Assembly: GCA_021733945.1 (NCBI GenBank)
Contig: JAIPJX010000013.1
Span: forward strand, 1-53,686
Source: Verrucomicrobiota bacterium
GTDB lineage: Bacteria > Verrucomicrobiota > Verrucomicrobiia > Limisphaerales > SIBE01
Direction of reading: 5' to 3'
Length of the DNA: 53,686 nucleotides
Shown: positions 9,565 to 47,256 of the stretch, one piece after another
Position numbering within the stretch: the stretch's first letter is position 1
Layout: the number at the start of each line of letters is the position of its first letter
Made by a program: the position numbers and the translations under genes
Notes under the pieces: model-generated
What the model was told of the DNA's origin: nothing
Databases searched by the model: none
Seen by the model: the letters and a program-made list of their open reading frames with translations, nothing else

Positions 9565-10530
9565 TCATTCGCTCCTTTTACCCGGGTCGGACCGCCCGGA
9601 TTCACCCTCGGGAACGGTCACGACCCCTGTCGCGGGATCATAAGGAAAACTTTTTCCGGATACCGGATCCAGCGGTACCCCGGCCAAATACCCCGGCACC
9701 AGATCCAGGAGTGTTCGAGGTGGAGCCCCCGTTTCCAGGGTGTGGGCGTGTACCGCCAGTTTCAGGATCACAGACCGGAACACCTGGGTGTGAACCTCTT
9801 GCTTGGACCGGAAATTGTCCAGGACGGGTTTGATGGCCTGGGGCATGAGTTTTGCCACCAATCGCTGCCACCAGGGAAACAGGCGACGTACATACCGTCG
9901 TTCGTTCCCGAGCGTGTCCTCCGCAGACTCGGCGTCCGCTTCCACCTCCTCCAGGGCTCGGACCAGGTGCCGGGTCTGGGATGCATCCAACTCTGGTTGC
10001 ATGGCGTCCAGGTGGTTTAAGCCGATTCGTTCGAGTGCAAACCCAACCAATCGATCCATCATCGACCCGCCCCGCGAACAGGCCTGCCCGAACCGAACGC
10101 ACTCCAGATGATGCCGCACCGCGTCCGCGGGGCGTCCCTCCGATGCGGCAATCAATCCCTCGGCCACCAGCCCCCGCCCCAGCATTTTGAAGGCTTTCAC
10201 CTCCGCAAGATGTTGGGTCGCGTGGGTCGTCGCATCGACACCGGTTGGAAACACCACCATGGATTCCAACATGAGACCCTCGCGAATCAACCGAAAAGCC
10301 TCCTGATTGGACCGCACAAACTCCCGGGTTTCCGCGCCGGAACCCTTCATTTCATCGGGCAGTTGCCCCACCAGGGCATTGCCCGCCTCCAGAAACCGTT
10401 CGTAACCATTGGGAACCGGGGGAGGCGATTGATCCGCCCCCCCGTTCAAAACCACCATGGCAACCCCCACACCGAAGGCCAGAACGACCGTCATCCACTT
10501 GAGAGCTCCTGAGAAACCAGCGCCTTGCAT
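9565..10530 (-). CDS. Membrane-anchored hypothetical protein
   Basis: 321 residues with one N-terminal transmembrane segment (about 12-30, MTVVLAFGVGVAMVVL) and a large helical domain predicted to be outside the membrane. The last 60 residues contain LDLVPGYLAGVPLDPVSGKSFPYDP, which resembles the C-terminal 'PLDPWGxPYxY' end of type II secretion pseudopilin-like proteins and is also common in large Verrucomicrobiota hypothetical families. No enzyme motif is seen. It is divergent from the cytochrome-FGE gene with 134 bp between starts and may share a promoter region with it. Confidence 0.72.
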   Translation of the reverse strand: MQGAGFSGALKWMTVVLAFGVGVAMVVLNGGADQSPPPVPNGYERFLEAGNALVGQLPDEMKGSGAETREFVRSNQEAFRLIREGLMLESMVVFPTGVDATTHATQHLAEVKAFKMLGRGLVAEGLIAASEGRPADAVRHHLECVRFGQACSRGGSMMDRLVGFALERIGLNHLDAMQPELDASQTRHLVRALEEVEADAESAEDTLGNERRYVRRLFPWWQRLVAKLMPQAIKPVLDNFRSKQEVHTQVFRSVILKLAVHAHTLETGAPPRTLLDLVPGYLAGVPLDPVSGKSFPYDPATGVVTVPEGESGRSDPGKRSE

Positions 10531-10664
10531 GCTTCCCGTTTACACCCGGAGCCCCTCCGCCGCGATTATAAAACACCCCGCCCGATTCCAATGAATCCGC
10601 ACATAGATTTTGACATCCCGGGACCCGTTGTGAAACAGTACCGAAAGTCCCTCCGGGATACACC

Positions 10665-12398
10665 ATGAAATTACAGTCGAATTATTTACACAAAGGCTTT
10701 CTCCTCGCATCGGGATGTTTCGTAGCGCTCGCACAGGCGGCTGAACGGGTCGATTTTGAGAAGGAAATCAAACCAATTCTGGAACTCCAGTGCCTCAGCT
10801 GTCACGGCGCGGAAAAACCCAAGGGCGACCTTCGGTTGGACACTCGTGCAAACGCGATGATCGGGGGCGAAAACGGCCCGTCCATCGTGGTTGGCAAACC
10901 CGAAGAAAGTTCCCTTTTCACCCTCACGGTGTTGCCGCCTGACGATGACGACATCATGCCACCCAAGGGCGAGCCTCTTTCCAAACAGCAGACCGACGCG
11001 CTGCGCCACTGGATTGAACAGGGTGCCATCTGGCCCGAAGACCTCGTCCTGACCGGTGTCCGGAAAATCGATTTCGTCAAGGACATCCAGCCGATTCTCG
11101 AGTTTTCGTGCGTGTCCTGCCACCGGGAAGGCCATGCGGACGGCGACCTCCGTCTGGACGACGCGGAATTTGCCTTTCGCGGCGGATCGAGCGGACCGTC
11201 CATCATTCCCGGCAAAGCCCTCGCCAGCATGGTCTACACGACCACCGTGCTCGATTCCGACCACGAGTATCTCATGCCGCCCAAATCAAAGGGCGGCCCC
11301 CTGCCCGTCGAACAAACCGATTTGCTGTGGGACTGGATCAATCAGGGTGCCGTCTGGCCAAAGGACCTGAAACTGCTTCCCCGCAAAGTCGCTGCCGCGG
11401 TTGAACAGGCACTCAAAACCGCCACCTTGATCCACGGCCAGTTGATCAGCAAACTCGATGTGCGCACTGTGGCCGAGATGAAGCCATACTCCGAACTGAT
11501 TCCAGGCACCCGCGTTGAGTTTGGGATGGTACCGCTGCCCGGTGGCGAATTCGTCATGGGCAGCCCTCAGGATGAAGACGGTCGGGCACCGGACGAAGGC
11601 CCCCAACACAGGGTGGCGATCGAACCGTTCTGGATGGGCACCCACGAGGTCACCTGGAGCGAGTACGAAATGTTCATGTATCCCACGGAAGAGAAAAAGA
11701 TCCGCCAACAGCACGAGTACAATGAGGATCTCTACCCCGGTGCAGACGCGGTCAGCCGCCCCACATCCCCCTATGTCGAAATGAGCTTTGGCATGGGCAA
11801 GGACGGCTATCCGGCCATCAGCATGACACAGCATGCGGCCAACAAATACTGTGAATGGCTCAGTGCCAAGACCGGGCATTTTTACCGGCTCCCGACCGAA
11901 GCCGAATGGGAATACGCCTGCCGTGCCGGAACCACCACGGCTTACTCGTTCGGAAACGACCCATCGGCTCTGGAGGACTACGCGTGGTTCGCGGACAACA
12001 GTGACTACAAATACCAGAAAATCGGGACCAAGAAACCCAATCCCTGGGGGTTGTACGACATGCACGGAAACGTGGCCGAATGGACTCTGGACCAATACTC
12101 CGAGGATTATTACGCCCAGTTCAAGGACACTCTGGCCCGGGAACCATGGAACAAAGCCACAAGACCCTACCCACACACCGTCCGGGGTGGATCCTGGGAC
12201 GATGACGCGGAGGCGCTCCGCAGCGCTGCCCGCCGGTACTCCGACAAATCGTGGAAACAGCAGGACCCCCAGCTTCCCAAGAGCATCTGGTACCTCACCG
12301 ACGCCCAGTTTATTGGCTTTCGTGTGATCCGTCCCCTGGTCGTGCCCTCCGCAGAGGTGCTATCTAAGTATTGGACAAGTGGCGTGGAAAATGAGTAA
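10665..12398 (+). CDS. Exported double cytochrome (PSCyt1) fused to FGE/SUMF1-like domain
   Basis: 577 residues with a signal peptide (cleavage near AQA, residue 24). Two consecutive PSCyt1-like modules follow, each with a haem-binding motif: CLSCH near 42 and CVSCH near 148, and each ending in a MPPK segment that can donate the distal Met. Residues about 285-557 form an FGE/sulfatase-modifying-factor-like fold (MVPLPGGEFVMGSP, LPTEAEWEYACRAGT near 408, WGLYDMHGNVAEW, VRGGSWDDD, GFRVIRP). The copper-binding cysteines of true formylglycine-generating enzymes are not evident near GGSW, so a binding or structural role is likelier than formylglycine formation (inference). It lies 110 bp upstream of a Tat-exported Gfo/Idh/MocA oxidoreductase and probably forms an operon with it, ending at the terminator near 13900. 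Confidence 0.9.
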   Translation: MKLQSNYLHKGFLLASGCFVALAQAAERVDFEKEIKPILELQCLSCHGAEKPKGDLRLDTRANAMIGGENGPSIVVGKPEESSLFTLTVLPPDDDDIMPPKGEPLSKQQTDALRHWIEQGAIWPEDLVLTGVRKIDFVKDIQPILEFSCVSCHREGHADGDLRLDDAEFAFRGGSSGPSIIPGKALASMVYTTTVLDSDHEYLMPPKSKGGPLPVEQTDLLWDWINQGAVWPKDLKLLPRKVAAAVEQALKTATLIHGQLISKLDVRTVAEMKPYSELIPGTRVEFGMVPLPGGEFVMGSPQDEDGRAPDEGPQHRVAIEPFWMGTHEVTWSEYEMFMYPTEEKKIRQQHEYNEDLYPGADAVSRPTSPYVEMSFGMGKDGYPAISMTQHAANKYCEWLSAKTGHFYRLPTEAEWEYACRAGTTTAYSFGNDPSALEDYAWFADNSDYKYQKIGTKKPNPWGLYDMHGNVAEWTLDQYSEDYYAQFKDTLAREPWNKATRPYPHTVRGGSWDDDAEALRSAARRYSDKSWKQQDPQLPKSIWYLTDAQFIGFRVIRPLVVPSAEVLSKYWTSGVENE

Positions 12399-22882: not shown

Positions 22883-23419
22883 ATGCCACCGCCAACCTCC
22901 TCCGATCCGGCCCTGCGCCGGGTGATCCTCGTTTCACGACTCAACGGCTGGAGCGTGGCCTTGTTCGCGGGATTCGCGGCGGGGATCAGCCTGCTCCTGG
23001 GTGATCTGACAGGGGTTGTGGTCTCGCTCTTCGGCCTGGTTTCCGGAACGATCGAAATTCGGGGGAACCGGATGCTGCAACGGCACGATCCCGCTGGAAC
23101 CAGGTCGATCATCGGCGCGCAACTGCTCCTCCTGGCCGTGATCGTCATCTATGCGGTGGGCCGCATCGCGACGTTCGACACCAACGAGATTCTGACGACG
23201 CTCGAGCCTCTGATGAAAGAAGCGATTCAAGGCCTCGACCTCGCGCCGGAAGAGCTGCGCCGGCTCATCAACATGCTCGTCTGGGCATTTTACGGAAGTC
23301 TGATCCTTGCCTCCTGTTGCTATCAGGGCGGACTCGCCTTCTACTACGGCCGCAAGCAGGCCGCAATCACCCGGGCCCTCGCATCGCCTCCGGCCCTGGA
23401 ACCCTGCAATCCCCGCTAG
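22883..23419 (+). CDS. Small multi-pass membrane protein, unknown function
   Basis: 178 residues. There are about four hydrophobic segments: VALFAGFAAGISLLLG and GVVVSLFGLVSGTI (about 25-58), AQLLLLAVIVIYAVG (about 79-93) and MLVWAFYGSLILASCCYQ (about 130-147). A polar loop with acidic residues (about 98-128) lies between the last two. It starts 6 bp after nhaC, so it may be translationally linked to the antiporter. No family is recognised. Its TAG stop overlaps the TAG stop of the convergent gene within the palindrome CTAG (23416-23419). Confidence 0.8.
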   Translation: MPPPTSSDPALRRVILVSRLNGWSVALFAGFAAGISLLLGDLTGVVVSLFGLVSGTIEIRGNRMLQRHDPAGTRSIIGAQLLLLAVIVIYAVGRIATFDTNEILTTLEPLMKEAIQGLDLAPEELRRLINMLVWAFYGSLILASCCYQGGLAFYYGRKQAAITRALASPPALEPCNPR

Positions 23420-24606
23420 TCAACCACCCGTGTCCTGATCCGAAACAGTTCGCCGTCGCCGGCCCCCAATACAAAAGTAAACCCCACGTAGGACGTGCTT
23501 GAAATCAACTGCCATTCGGCCGTTTGTTTGTTCAGCTTTTCGATCGCGTAATGATAGTCCTTTCGTTTGTGCCACGGGGCGATTCCCAACCACCTCGACT
23601 GAAGCCGTACCGTCACACTCTGGCTCATCTGATAATCGCGGTTGACCACCATGGCGTAATCGCCGCCCCCGTCATCCTCGAACATCCCAAGCACAAGACC
23701 ATCCCGGCTCGGCTCGCCAATCAGCTGCACCCAGTGTTCCCGAGGCGCGGCGCGGGTGCCCAGACTGAGGGGCGGCGTGTGGAAGACATCGAGCGACCGG
23801 AGCCCGATCAAATGGGGTCCAAGGCGCTTCAACTCGCGATTCAGGCTGGCGACGTCCCGACCGGATTGCGTGAGCCGCGCGCTCCCGGTTTCAAACAGAA
23901 GATCGCTGGAAAACCATTCCACCACCTTCACACCATAAGCCAGGTTCGTGTAAAGACTCTGTCGGAGCTTCCGAGCGTTGTCAGGAAGATAGCTCCTGTC
24001 GCCCCGCTCCACCCCGGGGTTCGCCGACGCCTCAATGCAGCTGGCCAGCGGGATGCCCGCCAACCGAGCCTGTTCCCGAAACTGTTCGAGTTTCTCAAAG
24101 TACCGGTCACCACCCCACCACCACTGATAATAGTCAAAGCTGAGAAGATCCGGCCGAACAACACGCATATACTCCCTGAGAAACGGCCCCGTGGTCGAGA
24201 GCATGTTCACAAATCCGATACCTCCCGGTGCCCCCCGCCGCAGCGTCTCGATGCTCTCCGCCAGAGCCGGAAACTCGGATTCAGGGTAGGGCTCGTCAGC
24301 CAGATGGTACCCCCACACGGTCGGGCTGGCACCGAGGCCCGGAGGCACCTCGCCCGATGATTTCCGGATCATGGCCTTGAGACCGTGCCGGGCGAGCACT
24401 TCGAGCTGGTCCGGCTCCCAATCGACCACGGTCATCCCCGCAGCCGCCAGCGCCGCAGCCCGATCGTCCAGATCATCCACTCCGGGCACCCCCCAAAGAT
24501 AAACGGCGAATTCGGGGAGGGTCGGTGCCGCACCCAGAGGCGTTGCCCAGCACAAGGCCATCATACACGCCACGGCCCAGCTTAGTCTTGAATTCGAATC
24601 GTTCAC
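23416..24606 (-). CDS. Secreted glycosidase-like (TIM-barrel) hypothetical protein
   Basis: 396 residues if translation starts at the GTG at 24606. That start is favoured because GAGAGAGG lies a few bases upstream and a signal peptide (SWAVACMMALCWATPLGAA) follows directly. An ATG at 24657 is the alternative. Sequence features suggest a beta/alpha barrel like those of glycoside hydrolases: WGYHLADEPYPES near 100 (a DEP segment as in GH42-like and DUF4434-like proteins), DLLSFDYYQWWWGG, and a C-terminal beta domain. No family can be assigned with confidence. Polysaccharide breakdown or glycan recognition in the periplasm is inference. It overlaps the convergent neighbour by the CTAG stop. Confidence 0.72.
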   Translation of the reverse strand: MNDSNSRLSWAVACMMALCWATPLGAAPTLPEFAVYLWGVPGVDDLDDRAAALAAAGMTVVDWEPDQLEVLARHGLKAMIRKSSGEVPPGLGASPTVWGYHLADEPYPESEFPALAESIETLRRGAPGGIGFVNMLSTTGPFLREYMRVVRPDLLSFDYYQWWWGGDRYFEKLEQFREQARLAGIPLASCIEASANPGVERGDRSYLPDNARKLRQSLYTNLAYGVKVVEWFSSDLLFETGSARLTQSGRDVASLNRELKRLGPHLIGLRSLDVFHTPPLSLGTRAAPREHWVQLIGEPSRDGLVLGMFEDDGGGDYAMVVNRDYQMSQSVTVRLQSRWLGIAPWHKRKDYHYAIEKLNKQTAEWQLISSTSYVGFTFVLGAGDGELFRIRTRVVD

Positions 24607-24778
24607 AAATCGCCTCTCTCTCCCTTCTGGATTACCAGCCAGCCGCTGAATGATCAATTCGTATTCGATCGGAACTTCTTGGATTCTACGGCGCTTGCGA
24701 CTACACTCGCGCCATCATCAAACCCTGACAAGGGGTCACTTCCTGGTATTGATTCTGCAAAGAAAACGTGGCGGCGTC

Positions 24779-25018
24779 AGCTTAGAGACGCATATCGATT
24801 CGAGGGGTTTGTTCCAGGTGCGACGGTAATTGGTGTTTTTGGTGACCCCAGAGCGCGCGTGCTCGCGCTTGGGCGTGGCCGAAAAAAACGGCATGTGGGG
24901 TGTGTGGCTGTTGGCAGGGGAGCTATTACGACAAGAAGGTCCGCCGTGTTCGGGATCTTTCCTGTGGCGACACTGAGATTTACCTGGAAGTAGAGGTGCG
25001 TCGGGTGGCGTGCAGGCG
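24779..25018 (+). pseudogene. ISL3-type transposase N-terminal remnant (frameshifted)
   Basis: Two frames together resemble the N-terminus of ISL3-family transposases. The first part (to about 24842) reads ...YRFEGFVPGATVIGV. After a frame change near 24843 the text continues as TACGVCGCWQGSYYDKKV, RRVRDLSCGDTEIYLEVEVR and RVACRRY, which fits the family zinc-finger region (CxxCG...YDrr...wRdL...yLe.evrRv.C). The catalytic DDE part is absent: the reading frame runs directly into an unrelated oxidoreductase tail. It marks the left edge of the accessory island. Terminal inverted repeats and a target duplication were not found. Confidence 0.6.
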
Positions 25019-25178
25019 TTACAGCAAACCGATGCGGGTGCATGATCAAGCCTGCGTGATCGTGAGTCAGTCACCCATGCTGGTGTTGGCCGGCGATGCC
25101 TTTGCCGGACCGAAAGTCGAGGGTGCGGCGCTCTCGGGTTGGGCGGCCGCCGAAGCCATTTTGAAATCCAGGGCATGA
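25019..25178 (+). pseudogene. C-terminal fragment of a FAD/NAD(P)-dependent oxidoreductase
   Basis: In frame with the transposase remnant, the last ~45 codons read HDQACVIVSQSPMLVLAGDA and FAGPKVEGAALSGWAAAEAI. The GDAFAGPxVEGAALSGxAAAE signature is the FAD-binding C-terminus of renalase/amine-oxidase-like FAD-dependent oxidoreductases. The rest of the enzyme (about 280 residues, including the N-terminal Rossmann motif) is missing. The 127 bp to the ABC ATPase gene hold nothing I can identify. Confidence 0.6.
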
Positions 25179-25305
25179 AGCCCAAAGCCGGCCGACATTT
25201 TCCCAGGCAACGGTTGTTAATGACAAATAGGGAAGCTCATTCAGAGCTTGATTCTGCGGGATCGCCGCCCCAGGGTGAAATCAAGCAATTCAAACCGTCG
25301 CCCGC

Positions 25306-26031
25306 ATGATTACGTCTTCGCCATCCGACCCACGCTCGAGCCCAACCGGAAACGGCCGGCTGGTGTTGGAGGTGTGCGGCGTTTCCAGATCCTATGCTGG
25401 CCGGCTGGTGCTGCAGGACGCGTCGTTTCGACTTCACGCCGGGCAGCGGCTGGCGCTCACCGGCCCTTCGGGTAGCGGCAAGACCACGTTGCTCAATTGC
25501 CTGGGCGGGGTGGATCGTCCTGACTCCGGCTCGATTGTTTTGCACGGCGAAGCGCTGGAAAAACTTTCCAGCGATCAACTCGCGCGGGTTCGCCGTCAAC
25601 GGGTCGGCACGGTGTTTCAATTCTTTCATCTGCTGCCGACGCTGACGGCGTTTGAGAATGTCGAGTTCCCCCTGCAATTGATCGGAGTGCCGCCGGACCA
25701 GCGGCGTCAGCGCGTGGAATCGTTGCTCGAACGCGTCAATCTCACCGCGCGCGCCCGGGCGTTTCCCGCGCAACTTTCCGGCGGTGAAATGCAGCGGGTT
25801 GCCATCGCGCGGGCGCTCATCCATCAACCCGACCTCATCCTCGCCGACGAGCCGACCGGCAATCTGGATTCGGCCAACGGCGAGAACATCCTCGCGCTGC
25901 TGCACGATCTCACGGAAGAAACGCACACGGCGCTGGTGCTCGTGACGCACAGCCTTGAAGCGACCCGCATCTGCCATCGCACGATTCGCTTACGCGACGG
26001 CGCGGTGGTCTCGGAGACGGTGCATTCCTGA
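25306..26031 (+). CDS. ABC transporter ATP-binding protein (AttE/LolD/MacB-like)
   Basis: 241 residues, the usual size for a stand-alone nucleotide-binding domain of the MacB/LolD class. Walker A is GPSGSGKTTL near 51-60, the Q-loop lies around FQFFHLLP near 105, the signature is LSGGEMQRVAIARAL near 157, and Walker B plus the D-loop is LILADEPTGNLD near 176. These ATPases drive extrusion or mechanotransmission through FtsX-type permeases rather than classical import. The gene ends 4 bp before the permease gene and forms the first gene of a three-gene module with an AttH-like lipocalin protein. Alanine codons are often GCG, unlike the flanking chromosome. Confidence 0.93.
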   Translation: MITSSPSDPRSSPTGNGRLVLEVCGVSRSYAGRLVLQDASFRLHAGQRLALTGPSGSGKTTLLNCLGGVDRPDSGSIVLHGEALEKLSSDQLARVRRQRVGTVFQFFHLLPTLTAFENVEFPLQLIGVPPDQRRQRVESLLERVNLTARARAFPAQLSGGEMQRVAIARALIHQPDLILADEPTGNLDSANGENILALLHDLTEETHTALVLVTHSLEATRICHRTIRLRDGAVVSETVHS

Positions 26032-28693: not shown

Positions 28694-29887
28694 ATGAGAT
28701 CAAATCCAATCTTCCAGCGATGCGTACCGACGCATGGTTTCCGCGCGCCGATTCTGGCGGCGGCGGTTTTAAGTCTGCTCTTGCCGTTGCCAGGCGCTGA
28801 ATTTCAGCCACCGTTAAAAACGACAGATGGCTTCGCGGTGCCCCAACCGGGGCGGGGCTTTGAGTTCCCGCGCGATCACGGAAGCCATCCCGAGTTCAAG
28901 ATCGAGTGGTGGTACGTGACGGGACATTTGCTCGGCGAATCGGATCGACGTTTCGGTTTTCAAGCAACCTTCTTCCGCCGCGCCGGGCCGCAACTCACGA
29001 ATGAAAGCGCCATCCCGGCCACTTCCGCCGCCTTTGGCAACGACGAGTTGCACCTTGCGCACATGGCGCTTCTGGATGTGCCGGGAGGACGGTTCATGCA
29101 CGAGGAACGGTTGAACCGCGCGGGCTGGGACGCCGGATCGATTACGAATACGCTGGCGGTGCACAACGGCAACTGGTTTTTGCGCCTGGGCACGAATGCC
29201 GGCAGCGATTTTGCCCTGCAGGGTTCCATTCGCGGTGTGGCCAGCTTTTCGCTCGCGCTCACCCCGACCAAGCCCCTCGTCGTCTTTGGTGAGAATGGCG
29301 TTTCCCGCAAGGGCGCTGGGTCGACGGCGTCAAGCCACTACCTGACGTTCTCGCGGCTGGCGGTCGAAGGCGAGCTGTCGCTGGCGGGCCGAAAGCAATC
29401 CGTCCGCGGGTCGGCCTGGATGGATCACGAGATCAGCAGCAGCCAGCTGGACGAAGATCAGGCAGGTTGGGATTGGGCCAGTCTGCAACTCAACGATGGC
29501 CGGGAAATCATGGCGTATCGGTTGCGCAAGCAGGACGGCAGCACCGACCCTTTCTCCCGACTGGCCTGGGTGGACGCGGTGGGGGTCGTCACGAATTTCA
29601 ACAGCACGCAATTCACGTGGTCAGCCGTGCGGACGTGGAAAAGCCCCGCCACGGGCGGCGTTTACCCAGTGACTGTGAAGCTGGCCACAACCGATCCCGC
29701 CAGCGGACAACCCGTGACCTTCACGCTGGAGCCGATCCTTTTGGACCAGGAGTTGAGTGGCGGGCTGGGGGGCATTCCCTATTGGGAAGGTGCCTGCCAT
29801 GTGCTGGATGACAAGGCGGAGAAAGTCGGATCTGCTTACCTGGAACTGACGGGCTACGTGGGAAGTCTGGCCGACCGTTTCAAATGA
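28694..29887 (+). CDS. CrtC/AttH-type lipocalin-like secreted protein
   Basis: 397 residues. An N-terminal signal peptide is visible (FRAPILAAAVLSLLLPLPGA, cleavage near 36). The body matches the carotenoid 1,2-hydratase/AttH two-lipocalin fold: FKIEWWYVTGHL near 71, FQATFFRR near 93, AWMDHEISSSQL near 240 and GWDWASLQLNDGREIM near 257. CrtC hydrates carotenoids, but members encoded with an ABC ATPase and FtsX permeases are AttH-like and of unknown substrate. It probably binds a lipid or hydrophobic ligand in the periplasm. It is the last gene of the module: only 3 bp separate it from the permease. Confidence 0.87.
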   Translation: MRSNPIFQRCVPTHGFRAPILAAAVLSLLLPLPGAEFQPPLKTTDGFAVPQPGRGFEFPRDHGSHPEFKIEWWYVTGHLLGESDRRFGFQATFFRRAGPQLTNESAIPATSAAFGNDELHLAHMALLDVPGGRFMHEERLNRAGWDAGSITNTLAVHNGNWFLRLGTNAGSDFALQGSIRGVASFSLALTPTKPLVVFGENGVSRKGAGSTASSHYLTFSRLAVEGELSLAGRKQSVRGSAWMDHEISSSQLDEDQAGWDWASLQLNDGREIMAYRLRKQDGSTDPFSRLAWVDAVGVVTNFNSTQFTWSAVRTWKSPATGGVYPVTVKLATTDPASGQPVTFTLEPILLDQELSGGLGGIPYWEGACHVLDDKAEKVGSAYLELTGYVGSLADRFK

Positions 29888-29949
29888 ATACGAGCGTGAG
29901 GGTGTATCTGAAATTGCTGTTCAAATACCGCCATCATCGCACCAGGAAA

Positions 29950-30102
29950 TGGGCGATGGCGGCGTGACGGTGCCAAGGTGTATTTGCCCGTGGCCACGTA
30001 AGGTTTGCGCAGCGTTTCAATTTCGGTCACGTCCTCCCGTTAGGCCACGTAGTAGAGCGGCTTGGCGCGCTCGCCATAGATGGAATAGCAATACCAGTTC
30101 AT
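29950..30102 (-). pseudogene. Possible small broken gene with internal stop
   Basis: Reading leftwards from an ATG at 30102 with a good Shine-Dalgarno (GGAG, 9 bases upstream), the frame gives MNWYCYSIYGERAKPLYYVA, then a TAA (30042-30040), then REDVTEIETLRKPYVATGKY continuing open. The stop may replace a CAA/CAG glutamine codon. I do not recognise the family. The remainder of the 29888-30366 gap shows only the short frame listed next. Confidence 0.28.
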
Positions 30103-47055: not shown

Positions 47056-47188
47056 GGCGCGCCCCACTGTGCTTCGTTTAAGGGGCGGGGATGTCCACGT
47101 TGAGGATTTCGAGGTTCCTCACGGCTTGCAGTTGAACGGACAGGGATCCTGATGCGGAGTGAGTGGGTTTGCCTCTTCGGGCAGGACC

Positions 47189-47256
47189 AAAGCGGCGTCG
47201 GCGCTGCGCTCTGCCACACGCACTCCAAAACACCGTCGTTCTTCCGACGCCGCTTT
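47189..47256. repeat. Long palindromic (REP-like) intergenic element
   Basis: Perfect 13-bp inverted repeats, aaagcggcgtcgg (47189-47201) and ccgacgccgcttt (47244-47256), flank a 42-base GC-rich loop. The arms begin and end with AAA/TTT, so a transcript in either direction would form a hairpin ending in a short U run. It lies between two convergently oriented intervals, downstream of the YheT-type gene (stop at 47361) and upstream of the membrane protein gene. It could be a terminator for the former or a copy of a dispersed palindromic repeat family. No second copy was noticed in this window. Confidence 0.65.

Follow-up and report, generated by a model that had tools for sequence, protein, structure and literature searches.

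Frameshifting is an established way for insertion sequences (IS) to produce a transposase, and the available part of PMC5009743 names IS1, IS3, IS5 and IS630 as families that use such an event. For the sites themselves, the available part of PMC3711429 assigns A_AAA_AAA to ribosomal shifting and A-runs of more than seven (n > 7) to transcriptional realignment, and it reads the occurrence of both shift directions within one family as a sign of transcriptional realignment. ISL3 is not mentioned in the available parts of either source, and ISL3 frameshifting is undescribed in those of PMC6211511, PMC9569102, PMC5644110, PMC10214660, PMC4133298 and PMC8547433. No report of it was found in the literature searched, to which ISfinder did not belong, so that single members may already have been annotated there. 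The ISL3 subgroup described here resembles the frameshifting families in having two overlapping open reading frames (ORFs), the second mostly in the -1 frame, and a poly-A slippery run, and it would likewise make an N-terminal product and a transframe transposase. It differs from them in belonging to another transposase family, in lacking a detectable Shine-Dalgarno-like or structural stimulator, and in being split just ahead of the zinc ribbon.

The window analysed here is a stretch of 53,686 nucleotides from a Verrucomicrobiota bacterium (contig JAIPJX010000013.1), in which a piece of such an element is joined to a piece of an unrelated gene. The element belongs with the ISL3 family (NF033550; PF14690 and PF01610; IS204/IS1001/IS1096/IS1165) by its zinc ribbon, by the full transposase profile found in a complete relative, L095, and by a left-end motif of the GGGTCTTC...GAGTGGGT type that is present in relatives; unlike a complete member of that family, the window copy is a remnant that has neither the DDE domain nor the element ends. 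The partner gene belongs with the amine-oxidase-type FAD oxidoreductases (PF01593), its tail being homologous to a 370-aa member in a same-family relative of the source genome (G005), with hydroxysqualene dehydroxylase HpnE as a distant match, but the last ~55 codons are all that is left of it in the window. The features of the region are as follows.

24732-24767, + strand: 36-bp stretch adjoining the transposase remnant, 86% identical to C43:16683-16718; two copies only in the assembly
24768-25014, + strand: ISL3 transposase remnant (PF14690), truncated at both ends; left limit inferred from where similarity to C43 stops
24787-24888, + strand: transposase N-terminal domain (DAYRFEGFVPGATVIGVFGDPRARVLALGRGRKK), 0 frame; same domain in the family loci
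24882-24888, + strand: A7 run, heptamer A_AAA_AAA between the 0 and -1 frames; conserved in relatives
24885-25016, + strand: ISL3 zinc ribbon, -1 frame; PF14690 at 31.5 bits, above cut-off
24900-25178, + strand: fusion ORF, 92 codons from GTG; probably without function
25007-25021, + strand: fusion joint, inside a patch of similarity between the two parents: TGC-CGG/AGG-xxx-TGC-GGC-AA(G/A) in the transposase family, GCTGGCGTTACAGCAAA in the oxidoreductase (by eye)
25012-25178, + strand: 3' end of an amine-oxidase-type FAD oxidoreductase gene, last ~55 codons; 85% DNA identity to L018:11495-11328 (L018 is a stretch of G005)
25306-26031, + strand: ABC transporter ATPase (PF00005, 6.8e-37), the next gene downstream of the oxidoreductase both here and in G005
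29890-29970, + strand: tail of a polyketide-cyclase/SRPBCC gene, body missing; 90% identity to L018:7129-7049

A preliminary description of this DNA had presented the fusion ORF as an ISL3 zinc finger that runs in frame into the tail of a FAD oxidoreductase, and the profile matches on one side and the intact G005 gene, at 85% DNA identity, on the other bear this out. The N-terminal part of the ORF matches PF14690 (Zn_ribbon_ISL3) over residues 2-39 (E 4.2e-5; 24.3 bits, just below the cut-off of 25.5, the ribbon being cut at GTG 24900) and NF033550 (ISL3 transposase; 1.6e-5), and translation from 24885 brings the ribbon to 31.5 bits. Profile searches with the separate halves, which had been proposed as a check, thus recovered ISL3 on the one side, but the match of the C-terminal part to the end of PF01593 (Amino_oxidase) was weak (E 0.0062, below cut-off). 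The two homologies meet at 25012-25016 in a single frame, and both halves sit in their native frames. The start region of neither parent is present, the FAD-binding part is missing, and one zinc cysteine pair is broken at the joint, with CRRY in place of CxxC. A DNA search of 58 genomes, own included, with at most nine candidates scored per genome, found the whole fusion in none of the 57 others. A single family spanning the entire fusion, the outcome that had been named as speaking against the first account, was looked for and not seen; the three other genomes that matched the fusion DNA did so on the oxidoreductase side alone.

The zinc finger had also been taken for the start of the transposase. 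It is indeed the ISL3 zinc ribbon, but an N-terminal domain precedes it at 24787-24888 in another frame. The remnant lacks the left inverted repeat, an ATG at the usual position and the DDE domain, and the left-end motif of the subgroup has no match in the window at up to three mismatches, the best candidate near the remnant carrying seven. Since the ISL3 DDE domain PF01610 is nowhere above cut-off in the genome, the window copy was filed as a remnant rather than as an element. A 79-aa read-through query of the remnant matched 4 of 387 genomes of the window's phylum, own included; one record in a search of plasmid records covered at least 80% of the query, and a decayed relative in another genome (G378, locus L086) retains the A7 run with its frame disturbed. 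Near the C43 copy of the 36-bp stretch, C43:16518-16578 matches window positions 47187-47249 in inverted orientation (63 bp, 82%), possibly as part of a small repeat family.

Three contigs of the assembly break at the same ISL3 3' end (C118:1-139, C67:1-136 and C193:41721-41856; loci L081, L082 and L083), which consists of the last ~36 codons and a right end ...CCGGAAATCCCGGAAGAGGC (compared by eye). These breaks point to a multi-copy ISL3 element, apparently of another subgroup, that was collapsed in assembly. Descent of the window remnant from this element was considered and is less likely, as its C-terminal residues differ from those of L095; its N-terminus is unassembled, so the matter is unproven.

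To the right of the joint, the sequence is most simply native. Window positions 25012-25179 share 85% DNA identity with the 3' end of the intact oxidoreductase gene of G005, and the tail is 79% identical over 57 aa to its protein, which matches PF01593 (3e-17) and the NAD(P)/FAD-binding profile PF13450 (4.6e-14) and has the N-terminal FAD-binding motif and the full length that are absent from the window gene. The order of oxidoreductase and ABC transporter gene in G005 is collinear with the window (168 bp at 85%, then 203 bp at 78%), and further along in G005 there follow, in the same relative order, matches to the SRPBCC tail, a PQQ-repeat gene and a short-chain dehydrogenase of the window. 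Because G005 keeps an intact oxidoreductase gene, the ABC gene and the later genes in order, the oxidoreductase tail is most simply read as the native neighbour of 25306-26031, on the intact order in this one relative. The tail was matched in 7 of 58 related genomes, own included (E up to 0.01); for two relatives, G040 and G049, no match to the window ABC gene was found in 20-kb stretches around the oxidoreductase, the best ABC match lying on another contig. Matches to the left neighbour, the gene at 23419-24657, occur in 14 of the 56 genomes, the window's own among them; the left half of the window was otherwise compared with relatives by DNA.

The native cluster is itself decaying. Its SRPBCC remnant, 4.7 kb past the fusion, amounts to 81 bp (the last 26 codons) directly after a CrtC-like lipocalin gene (28694-29887). 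With the oxidoreductase and SRPBCC genes both cut to their tails, the region reads as an eroding cluster and the fusion as one of at least two truncations. Neither the photolyase-related gene of G005 nor its second FAD oxidoreductase gene (L018:7522-8766) has a DNA match in the window genome at E up to 0.001, with 40 of the 45 candidates having been scored, and a 431-bp match of C52 to the G005 stretch falls where G005 has a different small gene. In G005 itself (L018, on G005:C137, at 10412-11053), the ABC ATPase gene is cut off, and the adjoining ORF looks transposase-like by eye, so mobile elements may have struck this cluster in two lineages.

The preliminary description had further placed the boundary of an island at the fusion, and this part of it finds no support. 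The right side is native by comparison with G005 and is itself eroding, a second native gene being likewise truncated; there is no clear step in G+C around the joint (0.603 before, 0.609 across and 0.641 after), and no tRNA lies in the window. GC skew shifts from about -0.1 to about 0 over the 10 kb after the joint.

At the joint, the window reads GTG GCG TGC AGG CGT TAC AGC AAA. At this place GTG/GTC xxx TGC xxx xxx TGC GGC AA(G/A) is common in the transposase family, the codons that follow TGC including CGG or AGG; the counterpart in the G005 oxidoreductase is GGC TGG CGT TAC AGC AAA. By eye, the parents are alike over roughly ten bases, which makes illegitimate recombination at a short similarity the simplest route. 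Adjacent deletion by a transposase starts at the end of the element and not within its gene; here the break falls inside both genes, and both partners are truncated. In the sequence of events that we propose, a copy of an ISL3-type IS would once have stood upstream of the FAD oxidoreductase gene in the same orientation, with the ABC transporter gene after it. Recombination between the CRxCGK codons of the transposase and the GWRYSK codons of the oxidoreductase would then have deleted the catalytic part of the transposase, the intervening DNA and about 315 oxidoreductase codons. The reading frame would have been kept by chance, as is expected in one case of three, and the product should be functionless.

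A deletion between an IS and a neighbouring gene had been suggested from the start, and the evidence agrees with it: the tail is collinear with the ABC gene as in G005, the break lies inside both genes, and the missing 5' part of the oxidoreductase has no copy elsewhere in the assembly (best other match E 2.8e-4 at 30% identity). As neither this part nor a DDE domain was found, deletion is favoured over translocation, short of proof because the assembly is a metagenome-assembled genome that is 90% complete. That incompleteness, together with the 225 contigs into which the assembly is divided, is what speaks for a translocation or inversion, in which the lost halves would still lie elsewhere in the organism, in unassembled DNA; the ISL3 3' end at three contig ends, although of another subgroup by its C-terminal residues, shows that the assembly does break at IS copies. 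Neither the reciprocal joint nor either missing half occurs in the assembly, however, and we regard such a rearrangement as rather unlikely. The joint could also stem from a chimeric contig. That the fusion ORF encodes a small protein with a new function is barely conceivable: its 92 open codons and the native frame of both halves would suit one, but the parental start regions and the FAD-binding part are gone, CRRY breaks one zinc cysteine pair, and no other genome of the 57 searched carries the fusion. The product of 24900-25178 is probably functionless and the gene dead. We therefore hold it highly likely that the locus is a chance fusion by deletion, in which the spread of the transposase piece over two frames at the A7 run is inherited from a conserved design of its IS subgroup, with a -1 shift at A7/A8.

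That design is found intact elsewhere. The complete relative L095 (CP114560.1, a Candidatus Manganitrophus plasmid), the single relative given to the profile search, matches NF033550 at 1.7e-90 and has the same two-frame layout as the window. Genome contigs were scanned with its second ORF, and the best 80 of the 145 stretches that encode relatives, with L095, gave 81 loci. The frame relation was read from two fixed templates, one matching the N-terminal domain and the other the ribbon, in the 65 loci that allowed it; the other 16, several of which begin at a contig end, were set aside with an anchor that was missing, weak or misplaced, and among them L156 and L158 are in the -1 layout and L145 is in the +1 layout. 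Joining the two parts requires a -1 shift in 58 of the 65 analysable loci, a +1 shift in six and none in one (L152), which has both parts in one frame and no A-run. The longest A-run in the 58 -1 loci is A7 in 31 and A8 in 22, with A6 in three and A5 and A4 in one each. At least 315 codons past the zinc-ribbon anchor are retained in 51 of these 58 loci. The left-end motif, which was picked by eye in the same loci, stands 126-157 nt upstream in 55 of the 60 loci with enough upstream sequence, so many of them look like whole elements. By contrast with this subgroup, which splits its transposase across two frames at A7/A8, the single-ORF ISL3 relatives L087 and L088 have about 40-50 residues in frame ahead of the ribbon, and neither has an A-run of five or more before it. 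In many of the loci L096-L175, inspection by eye also shows a word resembling TGGCATGAT some 6-10 nt ahead of the ATG of the first ORF (OrfA); it could serve as an extended -10 promoter, and the transcript would then be almost leaderless.

The coding constraint changes frame at the A-run. In 53 loci with identical spacing, 51 once near-copies were removed, mean column entropy ahead of the run, read in the 0 frame, is 0.87, 0.71 and 1.56 at codon positions 1, 2 and 3; past the run, read in the -1 frame, it is 0.70, 0.56 and 1.36. In 36-nt windows, the most variable position changes phase from the window beginning 72 nt into the domain to the one beginning at 84 nt, at the location of the run. 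Codon choice within the run is constrained as well: across 56 loci, 108 of the 112 cells for its two codons hold AAA and not one holds AAG, whereas AAA makes up 472 of the 1675 lysine codons of the second ORF (OrfB) overall. This excess persists in each of three G+C classes (low, middle and high). Lys-Lys pairs outside the run are AAA-AAA in 3 of 96 cases, and the first 950 nt after the zinc-ribbon anchor hold no further A7 run in any of the 51 sequences. In 47 of 58 loci, the first ORF continues beyond the run for exactly 47 codons. Its stop is a TGA that overlaps a GTG valine codon followed by A in 50 of 56 loci. At this place 54 of 56 loci use GTG, whereas elsewhere GTG accounts for 366 of 929 valine codons. 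AAA run codons and the GTG/TGA constraint would not be expected if either the slip or the end of OrfA were without importance; the loci share ancestry, so p-values overstate their independence. The two-frame layout with a -1 shift at the A-run is conserved.

The layout is also widely distributed. A quick tree was made of 60 proteins, comprising 58 subgroup members of at least 290 codons (52 in the -1 and six in the +1 layout) together with L087 and L088 from the window's phylum. Only -1 rows occur on its earliest branches, each of the six +1 members stands alone as a tip, and seven changes of the frame label are required over the whole tree; support is poor for 25 of its 56 inner branches. Among the -1 rows 13 phylum labels are represented, and one +1 row adds a fourteenth, these being soft labels from the titles of mostly metagenome bins.

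Two other readings of the layout have to be set against recoding. The frame change at the A7 run might be decay or sequencing error in single copies of what is otherwise an ordinary one-ORF ISL3 transposase. The window copy is after all a dead fragment, homopolymer indels are common, and the opposite shift in six of the 65 loci occurs at single tips of the tree. Random damage of this kind is exceedingly unlikely to account for the same -1 arrangement in 58 of 65 loci, the earliest-branching rows of the tree included, with both frames conserved, with run codons of AAA in 108 of 112 cells and never AAG, with the GTG/TGA constraint, with at least 315 codons past the anchor in 51 of 58 loci and with the left-end motif in 55 of 60. 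The other possibility is that OrfA and OrfB are separate proteins, OrfB arising by internal or coupled initiation in the overlap and no fusion protein being made. An ATG, GTG or TTG does stand ahead of the first zinc cysteine in 19 of the 58 -1 loci, and the annotated CDS of CP114560.1 begins at such an ATG inside the overlap, without the N-terminal domain. Yet no start of these three kinds lies between the last stop of the zinc-ribbon frame and that cysteine in the remaining 39, and 53 of the 58 have no ATG there; moreover, L087 and L088 carry their 40-50 residues in frame before the ribbon, L152 joins both parts in one frame without an A-run, and initiation of OrfB alone would not demand AAA over AAG. 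Separate synthesis is thus very unlikely.

On this sequence evidence, a -1 slip, either ribosomal frameshifting or transcriptional slippage, is very probably how the ISL3 subgroup produces its transposase. The heptamer of the A7 run, A_AAA_AAA, is known to be slippery. The short N-terminal ORF would end at the conserved TGA, and a -1 shift at the A7 or A8 run would join the first ~45 residues to the zinc ribbon and the DDE domain. By analogy with other IS families, an abundant short OrfA protein and a rare predicted transposase would be expected. Sites for classical stimulators were searched around the run: downstream RNA folding was no better than in shuffled sequence at three window lengths (mean z -0.04, 0.24 and 0.05), and Shine-Dalgarno-like words occurred in 3 of 51 sequences, more rarely than in the control (mean fraction 0.19). 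Slippage at long A-runs needs no stimulators. The lack of visible stimulators and the few +1 members lean towards slippage, while many of the runs are A7, below the n > 7 named in the available part of PMC3711429, which counts against it; we give the two mechanisms about even odds.

The fusion itself is ordinary genome decay, and the lasting result is the conserved frameshift layout of the ISL3 subgroup. We think it likely that a widespread ISL3 subgroup can express its transposase only by -1 recoding at a conserved A7/A8 run, with no help from classical stimulators, and that the OrfA product (about 90 aa, its TGA hidden in a Val-Lys codon pair) is a separate, probably regulatory DNA-binding protein, so that ISL3 would join the recoding IS families. 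The layout matters for annotation, since the CDS of CP114560.1, the single annotated complete copy among those examined, is annotated from an ATG inside the overlap and misses the true N-terminus. If this reading is true, ISL3 would be one more IS family that limits its transposase by recoding, and its short natural A7/A8 site, with no visible stimulators, would be one at which ribosomal and transcriptional slippage can be distinguished.
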